Assembly: GCA_903854195.1 (NCBI GenBank)
Contig: CAINVO010000004.1
Location: 1-41,734, forward strand
Direction of reading: 5' to 3'
Length of the DNA: 41,734 nucleotides
DNA from: an uncultured bacterium
GTDB taxonomy: Bacteria; Patescibacteriota; Minisyncoccia; Phycocordibacterales; CAINVO01
Shown piece by piece: positions 18,654 through 22,592 of the stretch (the stretch's first letter is position 1; each line of letters opens with the position of its first letter). The notes under the pieces were generated by a model, which worked only from the letters and a program-made list of their open reading frames with translations, was not told where the DNA came from and ran no database searches. Position numbers and translations under genes: made by a program.

Positions 18654-18812
18654 ACTTTACTCCCATCATTTTTTAAGCTAGTCTTGCCTCAGAGTCAGAT
18701 AAAACTGACATTATTAGTTTGGAATACTCACAAGGTATTTCAACAAGCCTATACCGCGCGGCTTTAAAGCGTGACAATCGAACATTGAAATCAAATTAAA
18801 GGAGGATTTCTA
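18654..18812 (+). promoter_or_regulatory. Structured 5' leader A upstream of pyrD-pyrC (homologous to leader B)
   Basis: GTCAG ataaaa CTGAC hairpin (18694-18709); pseudoknot AAGCC/GGCTT with CGCGC/GCGTG (18745-18773); CAATcgaacATTG; strong identity to 20940-21101. Confidence 0.7.
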
Positions 18813-19766
18813 ATGATAAAGCTATCTAACGGCCATGAGTTTGAATACATGGTCGCATCTGGAGCCTTAGCTTTTGATGGCAAAGGCTGGCTTTGGGAAC
18901 GGCCACTTGTGTGGCTAGGATTGATCAAACCAGAGCTTTTTACTGTCGTGATTAAAACCCTAACGCTTCATCCGCGTAAAGGGAATTTGCGATGGTGGAA
19001 ACCTTGGGAATGTGTCAGTTTAATTCCCGGAGGATCGGTCAACAAAATCGGTTTAACCAACAAGGGTATTCGTTGGTGGTGTGAAAACATCGGATGGAAT
19101 ATTGATTATCAAAAATACCCTACAGTGGGTTCAATTTTTGGTGATCAAGATGAATTGGTGGAAATGGCAGAAATTTTGAATAGTTTTGATTTTGTTGCAC
19201 TAGAGGTTAATCCTTCATGTCCAAACACAGGTCATTCTTTTCAAACAACTGAAGATATTATCAAAATGGTTAAGGCTGTTAAGAAAATATCGTTCCATCC
19301 CATCATCGTCAAAGTCTCCGTTGATCAGGACATCGTGGCGATCGCAAACGGTCTCGAAGGTGTTGCTGAAGCTGTATCACTAAACAGTGTGCCCTGGAAG
19401 ACGGCATATAAAAATGGCGAAATAACACCACTATGGAAACTTGAAGAAAAAGTTGGTGGTGGAGGTGGCGGTGTGTCAGGAAAGCCTGCGCAAAAATTCA
19501 ACTGGGCAGCGGTAAATAAGCTCGCTGTTCATAGCCACTCAATGCCAATCATTGGACCAAGTGTTATGAAGTACGAAGACATGGAGACTGTTCGCCGTGC
19601 CGGTGCACGGGCCGTTAGTTTTGGAGCGATCCATCTTGCGGAATATCCAGTCTGGCTTAGGCCTTGGTCCATTTTCACCCAACCATGCAAACCGACAAGG
19701 TTTGTCCAAAGAGAAAAAGAAGAGCAAAAGAAAAGGAAAGAAAAGCATGAACCAAAAACAAATTGA
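18813..19766 (+). CDS. pyrD: Dihydroorotate dehydrogenase
   Basis: KTLTLHPRKGN, GLTNKGIRWW, ALEVNPSCPNTG, PIIVKVSVD, PIIGPSVMKYEDM; adjacent pyr genes. Confidence 0.82.
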   Translation: MIKLSNGHEFEYMVASGALAFDGKGWLWERPLVWLGLIKPELFTVVIKTLTLHPRKGNLRWWKPWECVSLIPGGSVNKIGLTNKGIRWWCENIGWNIDYQKYPTVGSIFGDQDELVEMAEILNSFDFVALEVNPSCPNTGHSFQTTEDIIKMVKAVKKISFHPIIVKVSVDQDIVAIANGLEGVAEAVSLNSVPWKTAYKNGEITPLWKLEEKVGGGGGGVSGKPAQKFNWAAVNKLAVHSHSMPIIGPSVMKYEDMETVRRAGARAVSFGAIHLAEYPVWLRPWSIFTQPCKPTRFVQREKEEQKKRKEKHEPKTN

Positions 19767-20823
19767 ATCGATAACAATTCCTCGGTGGTTTGATCGCCAT
19801 CTACACATTCGCGACGGCGACATGATGAGAAAGGTTCTTCCGTCTACGCTCAACCAGCGTGCGACAGGAGCGGTCATTATGCCGAACTTGATTGATCCGA
19901 TTTCGACGGTCGAGAAAGCTATGGATTACCGGCAACGGATCCAGTTTGCAATCAATGCCGTCTTTACAGGACAAACAGCCAACAGTGACTTCTTGCCATG
20001 TATGACGCTCTATCTCACGGACCAAATAAGTCCCGAAGAAGTGGTCCGTGGTTTTGACCAAGGGGCCTGGAGCGGTGTTAAGTTGTACATGGCTGATCAA
20101 CAAGGTCAGGGTGGTACAACAGGATCACATAGTGGAGTAAAAAATCTCCTCGGCCGATATCGTGTGTTTGAGGCTATGGAAAAGCACGGCATTCCACTTC
20201 TCGGGCACTTCGAAGCTGTGGAAAGAGTGGTTGATGAGTTCGATCGAGAGGTTGTTTCTCTCGAGCGAGATTTGATGCCAATCCTAAAATCGTTCCCTAA
20301 TCTGGAAGTGGTATTTGAACATATCACAGACGGTCGGGCAGCTGATTTTGTGGCCGAAGCCGATCATAAAATTAACGCAACGGTGACTGTTCAACACATG
20401 ACACTAAACCGGAATGAAATGTTTTGGGGTGGAATGAATCCTGTGAACTATTGCAAGCCAGTCCCGAAGCGTGAAGAACATCGGCAAAAGGTAAGACGGT
20501 ATGTGACATCCGGACACCCCCGTTTTGGAGCAGGTACAGACTCGGCTCCGCATGACGTTAGTGCGAAGTCTCGCTGCTCTGGGTGTGCTGCTGGTATCTT
20601 TACTGCTGACTCAGCAGTTGAAAGGTACACAGCTATATTCGAGGAAGATGATGCTTTGCAGCATCTTGGTCCATTCTTATCCGAAAACTTTCTCCATATC
20701 TATGGTCGAAAGGTTAGTGATGAGATGATGACCATCGAGCACAAAACTTCTGTCATTCCTGAATACATTGGAGGTGTGAAAGTTTTCCAAGCAGGGTCAA
20801 CCTTGCAATGGAAGCTTGTATAA
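19747..20823 (+). CDS. pyrC: Dihydroorotase; start overlaps pyrD end
   Basis: RWFDRHLHIRDGDMM, GVKLYMADQQGQ, LLGHFEAV, VFEHITDGRAADFV, FGAGTDSAPH; preceding 50 codons of the long ORF overlap pyrD. Confidence 0.9.
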   Translation: MNQKQIESITIPRWFDRHLHIRDGDMMRKVLPSTLNQRATGAVIMPNLIDPISTVEKAMDYRQRIQFAINAVFTGQTANSDFLPCMTLYLTDQISPEEVVRGFDQGAWSGVKLYMADQQGQGGTTGSHSGVKNLLGRYRVFEAMEKHGIPLLGHFEAVERVVDEFDREVVSLERDLMPILKSFPNLEVVFEHITDGRAADFVAEADHKINATVTVQHMTLNRNEMFWGGMNPVNYCKPVPKREEHRQKVRRYVTSGHPRFGAGTDSAPHDVSAKSRCSGCAAGIFTADSAVERYTAIFEEDDALQHLGPFLSENFLHIYGRKVSDEMMTIEHKTSVIPEYIGGVKVFQAGSTLQWKLV

Positions 20824-20867
20824 AACTCAAGTAATTCGAAAAACAAAAAAAGCTAATTAAAACAAAC

Positions 20868-20903
20868 ACAGCCCCACACTCAAAAAGTGTGTGGGCTGTT
20901 TTC
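20868..20903 (+). terminator. Intrinsic terminator after pyrC
   Basis: ACAGCCCCACACT caaaa AGTGTGTGGGCTGTTTTC. Confidence 0.9.
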
Positions 20904-20939
20904 TTATGCTTTCCAATTATTCATTATTCCTGTTTTGTA

Positions 20940-21101
20940 GACTTTACTCATTTCCATTTTTAAGTTAGTCTTGCCCCAGAGCCAGGTAGTCTGGCGTTTT
21001 ATAGTTGAAATATCTAACAAGGTGTTTTGACAAGCCTGAAACACACGGCTTTAAAGTGTGGCAATCGAACATTGAAATCAAGTTAAGAAGGAAAATATTC
21101 T
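20940..21101 (+). promoter_or_regulatory. Structured 5' leader B upstream of pyrE-pyrF (homologous to leader A)
   Basis: GCCAG gtagt CTGGC (20981-20995); pseudoknot AAGCC/GGCTT with CACAC/GTGTG (21032-21060); CAATcgaacATTG. Confidence 0.7.
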
Positions 21102-21790
21102 ATGAATAATTGTACCGAACGCTGGATTAAGGAATACAAGAAAAGGGGAGCGCTCTGGCTTCACGACAACAACCCTGTTCGCCCGCACGCATTGCTTACT
21201 TCTGGTAAACACAGTGGCGGTTTTTTTAACAGCGGGCTTGTGCTCGAAGATCCATTTCTTTTGGATAAGGCATGCCAAGATCTGTTGGTCCTCCTTACGG
21301 GGGCGGGATGTACGGTCTATAAGGATGTTCATCGTGTGGTCGGTCCCGCAATGGGGGCTATCACTCTTGCACATTCCTTGGCATATCGGATTGCAGGGGT
21401 AACTTTTTCTAGTCAGTGCTTCTGCTCATACACTGAAAAAGAAGTTCTCGACGGGGAAAATACCATGGTGTTCAAGAGAACAAGTGTCAAAGACGGAGAG
21501 TCCGTTCTTGCCGTTGAAGACGTTTTGACCACAGGGGGAAGCGTTGACCTTACAACAACAGCAATCGAAAAAAAGGCGGAATCGTCTTGCCTTACGTTGT
21601 CGTTCTTGTGAACCGTTCTGGTCTCACGGAAATCAATGGTAAAAAAATTATTGCCTTGATCGATCGGCCCATGCCAATGTGGGCGCCAGATGACTGTCCG
21701 CTTTGTGCGGCGGGATCCGAAGCGATTCGCCCAAAAGGCGCGGAAAGCTGGGAACGCTTGAATGCAGACTATTTGAGTCTCCAAGTTTGA
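21102..21790 (+). CDS. pyrE: Orotate phosphoribosyltransferase encoded in two frames (0 frame 21102-21611; -1 frame from 21575 to 21790)
   Basis: 0 frame HALLTSGKHSGGFFNSG, VEDVLTTGGSV; -1 frame continues EKK|GGIVLPYVVVLVNRSG...DDCPLCAAGSEAIRPKG; junction is A_AAA_AAG at 21569-21575. Confidence 0.85.
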
Positions 21791-21833: not shown

Positions 21834-22592
21834 ATGGCGAAAAAAAAGAAACTAACTCCAGCGGAACGTTTGATTGTTGCAGCTGATTTTAAGCCGCAAC
21901 GTTCATCAAGTAATTCTGGTTCACTACTGGCTCAAATTTACATGATGGGGCTTTGTAACCATTTGAGAGGAACGGGTGTTTATATCAAAGTAAATTCAGC
22001 CCTGCGTGCTGTAGGTTACCCCTTGATTGACATCATTCATGATAATGGGCTCAAGTGTTTTGCAGATTTAAAGCTGTATGACATCAGCGAGACCCTTGCG
22101 ACAGATGGTGAGCTTTTGTTTGATAAAAAACCTGAGCTTTTAACAACCGTGTGTTCTTGTGGCTCCAAAGCCATTTCGGCACTCAAGAAAGTTCTGCCGG
22201 AAACGGAAGTTCTCGGTGTGACAGTTCTTACTAGTCTAACCGAAGAAGATTCCATGATGATCCACGGAGTATCAATATCAAGAGCGGTTCTATCGATGGC
22301 AAAAATTGGATTAGAATCTAGTCTTGATGGTTTTATTTCTTCGCCAGCTGAGGCGGATATGCTTCGTAGGTTGGTAGGTGAAAACAAAACCATCAACACC
22401 CCAGGTATTCGCCCGACATGGGCGATTGTCAAAGGTGACGATCAAAATCCAGATCGTATTATGACACCGGCAAAAGCTATCAAAGCTGGCGCTGACAGAA
22501 TTGTGGTGGGACGTCCTATTGTCCAAGCTGGCAATCCTCTCGATGCCGTAAAACGAACAATCGATGAGATTGCTCAGGCGCTAGAGATGTAA
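21834..22592 (+). CDS. pyrF: Orotidine 5'-phosphate decarboxylase
   Basis: LIVAADFKPQ, CFADLKLYDISET, TVLTSL, NTPGIRP, AGADRIVVGRPIVQA. Confidence 0.93.
   Translation: MAKKKKLTPAERLIVAADFKPQRSSSNSGSLLAQIYMMGLCNHLRGTGVYIKVNSALRAVGYPLIDIIHDNGLKCFADLKLYDISETLATDGELLFDKKPELLTTVCSCGSKAISALKKVLPETEVLGVTVLTSLTEEDSMMIHGVSISRAVLSMAKIGLESSLDGFISSPAEADMLRRLVGENKTINTPGIRPTWAIVKGDDQNPDRIMTPAKAIKAGADRIVVGRPIVQAGNPLDAVKRTIDEIAQALEM

Follow-up and report, generated by a model that had tools for sequence, protein, structure and literature searches.

Structured 5' leaders with a covarying hairpin and an H-type pseudoknot upstream of pyrDC and pyrEF: a candidate regulatory RNA family

Known pyrimidine leaders and pseudoknot RNAs

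In Escherichia coli, pyrC and pyrD are under translational control by start-site choice, and in the translational operators of T4 gene 32 and of ribosomal proteins pseudoknots serve as landing sites for the regulator. The leader presented here resembles the former in its orthologous genes, its 5' hairpin and a control that would operate at the level of translation, but its start-site letters are unconserved and it carries a pseudoknot rather than a simple hairpin masking the Shine-Dalgarno sequence; with the latter it shares a pseudoknot upstream of the ribosome-binding site, yet it stands on several unlinked metabolic operons, beyond the gene of its own regulator. Like the PyrR-binding site of pyr attenuators it is a leader RNA upstream of pyr operons, whereas it matches no Rfam family, contains no credible terminator and occurs in genomes in which a PyrR gene was not found. 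Compact H-type pseudoknots next to a hairpin are further known from the preQ1-I riboswitches (PMC11625349). The likeness to that family (RF00522) is that both place a small H-type pseudoknot, whose L3 contains an A, within a 5' leader and close to the ribosome-binding site, but here there is no Rfam match, pyr genes take the place of queuosine genes, a separate hairpin (P1) precedes the pseudoknot, conserved pocket bases are lacking and the Shine-Dalgarno sequence lies outside the pseudoknot.

Comparison with Rfam 15 returned no family matching the leader, neither for the window (the whole 41,734-nt stretch of DNA analysed) at the gathering score, nor for the leader region with E allowed to reach 10, nor on any leader among 13 homologous loci with E allowed to reach 1, in agreement with the original prediction's impression that this does not look like the PyrR-binding loop. 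PyrR was sought with a single model out of several, one that scores above its cut-off in 6 of 14 control genomes; nothing in the 14 motif genomes passed that cut-off, and the weaker matches there fall, as read from their sequences, in ComF-like genes. Because PyrR is absent from the 14 motif genomes by this measure and aspartate carbamoyltransferase is detectable in the window's genome only, classic PyrR control does not account for the leader. A credible terminator (a hairpin with a U-run before the first gene) was likewise seen in none of the leaders read, making attenuation unlikely; a terminator scan picks out P1 followed by GTTTTATAGT and ATTATTAGTT in the window's own leaders, such hits being no more numerous than among shuffled sequences. 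We found no paper describing the leader element, nor one joining Patescibacteria, pyrimidine and riboswitch, and consider the kind, a cis-regulatory leader with an H-type pseudoknot, as known and the family as new as far as these tools reach.

Two leaders in front of pyrDC and pyrEF

The twin leaders described in the original prediction are both present, A at 18654-18812 before pyrD-pyrC and B at 20940-21101 before pyrE-pyrF, and align with about 79% identity over about 150 nt; Pfam and NCBIfam matches bear out the pyrimidine genes claimed downstream. The features, all on the plus strand, are as follows.

18656-18684, +, predicted promoter of leader A: TTTACT (18656-18661), 17 nt, TAGTCT (18679-18684), from geometry
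18691-18812, +, predicted leader RNA A, AGAG to the pyrD start codon (homologues, covariation)
18694-18709, +, P1 hairpin A, GUCAG/CUGAC (covariation, 5/5 pairs, 14 sequences)
18719-18743, +, P2 hairpin A, 10 bp (window-genome copies only; absent in L006)
18745-18773, +, H-type pseudoknot A: S1 18745-18749/18760-18764, S2 18755-18759/18769-18773, L1 UAUAC, L3 UAAA (covariation, 12 genomes)
18800-18805, +, Shine-Dalgarno sequence AGGAGG of pyrD (read in sequence)
18813-19766, +, pyrD, dihydroorotate dehydrogenase (Pfam DHO_dh 3e-18, NCBIfam)
19747-20823, +, pyrC, dihydroorotase, dimeric type (TIGR00856 above cut-off)
20870-20899, +, intrinsic-terminator-like hairpin 3' of pyrC (read in sequence)
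20943-20971, +, predicted promoter of leader B: TTTACT (20943-20948), 17 nt, TAGTCT (20966-20971), from geometry
20978-21101, +, predicted leader RNA B, AGAG to the pyrE start codon (homologues, covariation)
20981-20995, +, P1 hairpin B, GCCAG/CUGGC (covariation, 14 sequences)
21004-21031, +, P2 hairpin B, 12 bp (two-copy alignment)
21032-21060, +, H-type pseudoknot B: S1 21032-21036/21047-21051, S2 21042-21046/21056-21060, L1 UGAAA, L3 UAAA (covariation)
21087-21092, +, Shine-Dalgarno-like GAAGGA of pyrE (read in sequence)
21102-21611, +, pyrE, orotate phosphoribosyltransferase, frame broken at the A7 run 21568-21574 (Pfam Pribosyltran, sequence)
21834-22592, +, pyrF, OMP decarboxylase (Pfam OMPdecase 3e-29)

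The terminator-like hairpin after pyrC suggests that pyrEF is probably a transcription unit separate from pyrDC. The source genome is 0.81 Mb in size and the closest named relative of the window's PyrE is from a Parcubacteria MAG; BLAST found no third copy of the leader in the genome, and its pyrB (G000:C13) lacks one. As a separate observation, the pyrE frame breaks at window positions 21567-21575 (GAA AAA AAG GCG), where the heptamer A AAA AAG resembles the dnaX -1 slippery site and past which the -1 frame matches the C-terminus of intact relatives (GGIVLPYVVVLVNRSG...); this could be either a homopolymer sequencing error or expression by slippage and frameshifting.

The conserved 5' third of the aligned leaders is probably promoter. 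A promoter-like TTnAnT-N17-TAnnnT pair, with small departures, lies 5-7 nt upstream of an AGAG in 14 of 15 leaders, such that the RNA most likely starts at this AGAG, just 5' of P1, and the shared stretch actttactc ... tagtct, originally counted as RNA, is instead read as promoter. The sequence immediately 5' of AGAG is variable (e.g. TGCCTC, AGTGCC, AGCGAC, GGGCCAC, TTGTC). The resulting predicted 5' UTRs are 67-91 nt long, or 122-124 nt where P2 is present.

Every convincing copy consists of the 5' hairpin P1, then 0-2 nt or, in the window copies, an extra hairpin, then an H-type pseudoknot built from S1 and S2, whose 3' end lies 22-50 nt upstream of the start codon in the 14 counted leaders. 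The compensatory change first noticed in P1, GUCAG/CUGAC in A and GCCAG/CUGGC in B, extends to the wider set, with all five P1 pairs covarying across 14 sequences; the commonest form is GUCGA-loop-UCGAC, with a loop of 3-6 nt in the curated set. The proposed pseudoknot, with S1 AAGCC/GGCUU in both leaders and S2 CGCGC/GCGUG in A and CACAC/GUGUG in B, is likewise upheld by covariation of S1 and S2 across 12 genomes. S1 is usually A-R-G-C-Y and 4-5 bp long (forms seen: AAGCC/GGCUU, AAGCU/AGCUU, AGGC/GCCU, AGGU/ACCU and AUCG/CGGU), S2 is 5-6 bp long and freely variable, L1 has 2-5 nt with no conserved base, and L3 has 2-4 nt and mostly ends in A. Conservation of unpaired bases is limited to an adenine at the third position of L3 (12 of 13) and AGA before P1. 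The hairpin between P1 and the pseudoknot, P2, which had been overlooked, shows six one-sided compatible changes between A and B; the leader of G099 keeps P1 and the pseudoknot and lacks P2, suggesting that P2 is a local addition special to the window's genome. A further hairpin proposed before the Shine-Dalgarno sequence, CAAU-cgaac-AUUG (P4), does not covary and is not preserved among relatives, in which just a sequence of roughly UUGAAC.UUGAAA recurs between the pseudoknot and the Shine-Dalgarno sequence. RNAfold does not handle pseudoknots; its predicted folds contain P1 in almost every leader and S2 in the majority.

Homologues and covariation

The searches spanned about 400 genomes of the window's order and yielded 12 further convincing copies in 11 other genomes, for a total of 14 copies in 12 genomes. 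Ten of the 12 stand upstream of pyrD, pyrE or pyrF, or of a weak orotate-phosphoribosyltransferase-like gene followed by pyrF, and two (G057, G384) precede unrelated genes; the association with pyrimidine genes noted in the original prediction is thus seen for 12 of the 14 convincing copies. A covariance model of the two window sequences, the check proposed at the outset, was run on 297 genomes of the same order and gave one clear match outside the window, directly before pyrE-pyrF (G099, E 4e-5). The three-sequence model matched a site in G256 that precedes pyrF and one in G057 that precedes an alanyl-tRNA-synthetase-like gene, and the six-sequence model added copies in G214, G318, G003, G180 and G384 as well as a second G024 leader; the homologues thereby recovered covary in P1, S1 and S2. 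Independently of the models, a PyrD protein search of 397 genomes found seven close PyrD relatives, three of which (G133, G024, G337) have the leader; these were found via the protein and so were not selected by fold, and in G337 the helices read AUCG/CGGU (S1) and CUGUA/UACGG (S2). Leaders before pyrE or the phosphoribosyltransferase-pyrF pair occur in G003, G180, G214, G318 and G024, and the window's genome (G000) and G024 each have two separate pyr operons headed by the element. The gene downstream of the G384 copy encodes an uncharacterised 155-aa protein, and OMP decarboxylase was not found in G057 or G384. The element is absent from the sole other genome of the window's genus, and in L004, the named Parcubacteria relative of pyrE, no P1 plus pseudoknot precedes that gene.

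Several candidates were set aside. Matches of the three-sequence model in the wider class were rejected, among them G508 (L047; E 0.006 per genome, 384 genomes), where L047 lacks a proper pseudoknot. L007, L022, L023, L046, L048-L052 and L096 look like promoter or AT-rich matches. L097:1501-1596 (G239), before a 385-aa protein of unassigned family, has good P1 and S2 and a weak S1; no copies were found in 12 other genomes of its genus, and it is kept as tentative and excluded from the counts. In G249, the leaders L089 (pyrEF) and L078 (pyrD) have a promoter and a P1-like hairpin without an H-type pseudoknot, in place of which L089 has a UACACA-GAGA-UGUGUA hairpin. Elsewhere in G384, the minus strand of L095:2680-3025 matches the cspA thermoregulator RNA below threshold (48.6 bits against a gathering score of 78, E 1.6e-9).

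The curated set (14 sequences, 12 genomes) has only standard combinations among its letter pairs, with two-sided changes at 14 of 15 pairs, and its covariation score of 0.874 compares with 0.260 for shuffles, none of 1000 being as high (shared descent uncorrected). It is important to note that this alignment was assembled visually with knowledge of the structure and hand-padded with N to hold the register, such that the pair counts favour the structure, and that for members found by a model the model itself biases the P1 and S2 counts. Independent evidence for the fold comes from the three PyrD-found leaders and from S1, a helix included in no search model, where two-sided changes occur at four of five pairs and the score of 0.538 compares with 0.164 when shuffled. 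Pairing fills 98% of pair cells in the two-copy alignment and falls to 27-42% once partners are displaced by 1-3 columns, and the same displacement lowers pairing in the six-sequence alignment from 99% to 26-38%; by shuffling, the two copies alone are weak (115 of 500). A generic P1-plus-pseudoknot pattern, composed after the first members were known, occurs about once per 34 kb of shuffled DNA (24 in 809 kb), and its real occurrences fall on leaders. Judged from these comparisons of sequence, the leader is a real structured RNA whose fold lies far above chance.

Candidate modes of control

With a fold conserved across the 5' UTRs of genes linked by function, mostly those of pyrimidine synthesis, the leader is, on sequence grounds, of the cis-regulatory kind. 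Of the control element first proposed, the structured RNA, its pseudoknot, the covarying hairpin and the preference for pyr genes stand, and the P4 hairpin and the promoter taken as RNA do not. Of the outcomes that the original prediction named as refuting it, a lack of further covarying homologues and an Rfam match were both checked, and neither occurred. On balance we favour a new cis-acting 5' leader RNA family that would tune pyrimidine enzymes after transcription initiation via a shared diffusible effector. Transcription would start at AGAG, a few bases before the 5-bp P1, and the pseudoknot would be placed at the upstream edge of the ribosome landing site; an effector, either a nucleotide-type metabolite or an RNA-binding protein sensing one, would stabilise or disrupt it and alter ribosome access, with pyrimidine enzyme levels following pyrimidine status. 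Since no leader has a credible terminator, control is likely exerted after transcription start, on translation initiation or on mRNA stability, where a decay variant would act through the 5'-terminal hairpin; and since in G000 and in G024 two unlinked pyr operons have the element in common, and it precedes genes for different proteins, we propose a shared effector rather than autocontrol of each enzyme. Against this explanation stand the two copies with no visible pyrimidine link (alanyl-tRNA-synthetase-like gene in G057, 155-aa protein in G384), the poor conservation of unpaired bases, unlike most riboswitch pockets, the pyrB of the same genome without a leader, and G249, which keeps P1 without the pseudoknot. 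The 3' strand of S1 (GCYU) may also pair alternatively with the 5' strand of S1 or with the Shine-Dalgarno sequence, a possible platform whose dual pairing could explain why S1 is kept in sequence while S2 varies freely. Complementarity between the S1 3' strand and the Shine-Dalgarno sequence is seen in most leaders, but matching within leaders is no better than between leaders (permutation p 0.35), and this pairing was rejected as a switch.

As to what is sensed, two readings are weighed nearly equal. The pseudoknot may itself be the binding site for a compound of the pyrimidine pathway (UMP, UTP, CTP, orotate, dihydroorotate or PRPP), controlling translation as a metabolite riboswitch, a possibility we hold tentatively: the compact H-type pseudoknot by a hairpin is the fold used by preQ1-I (PMC11625349), one metabolic pathway lies behind genes of differing protein families and the L3 adenine is kept, but L1 lacks any conserved base, conservation among unpaired bases is sparse overall, two targets are non-pyr and the Shine-Dalgarno sequence is outside the pseudoknot. 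Loop bases that vary around a preserved helix shape and P1/S1 sequence (GUCGA/UCGAC, ARGC/GCYU) would suit about as well a translational operator, recognised by an RNA-binding protein that represses or activates in trans and could thus serve unrelated first genes and non-pyr targets; we regard this too as possible; against it, no candidate protein emerged and PyrR was not found in the 14 motif genomes. That the hairpin and pseudoknot merely protect the mRNA or aid ribosome loading, without regulation, would fit a P1 at the predicted 5' end and copies before non-pyr genes, but seems unlikely given the clear preference for pyr operons in genomes with just one or two copies.

Two further explanations are highly improbable. 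The inverted repeat GTCGA-N-TCGAC just past the predicted start site, near +4 to +19, might bind a transcriptional repressor as DNA, with the RNA fold incidental, but a spacer ranging between 3 and 6 nt across the curated set is more in keeping with an RNA hairpin, and P1 alone would leave the covariation of S1 and S2 unexplained. Start-site switching as at E. coli pyrC/pyrD draws on the same genes and a 5'-end hairpin, and is opposed by the lack of conservation just before AGAG.

It is somewhat doubtful, though conceivable, that the leader, a 5' hairpin and H-type pseudoknot setting pyr-gene translation in Patescibacteria-like ultrasmall bacteria, is a new riboswitch class and the first known that senses a compound of the pyrimidine pathway. 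In one review on the ligands of riboswitches PRPP is covered, and the terms pyrimidine, UTP, CTP, uridine and cytidine do not occur (PMC9971707). Translation regulation is, according to a review, likely key in this group of ultrasmall bacteria (PMC11665869), and a covarying pyrD/pyrE/pyrF leader offers a testable handle on control of their nucleotide supply, in organisms that often keep a partial pyrimidine pathway only: the OTCase/ATCase N-terminal family was detected in 1 of 14 motif genomes, that of the window (pyrB, G000:C13). Most of the 14 retain just part of the pathway. In G133, a 437-aa protein encoded after pyrD and pyrC, downstream of one leader (L102:2736-4049), has an OMP decarboxylase C-terminal half and about 210 preceding residues that may be a fused orotate phosphoribosyltransferase.
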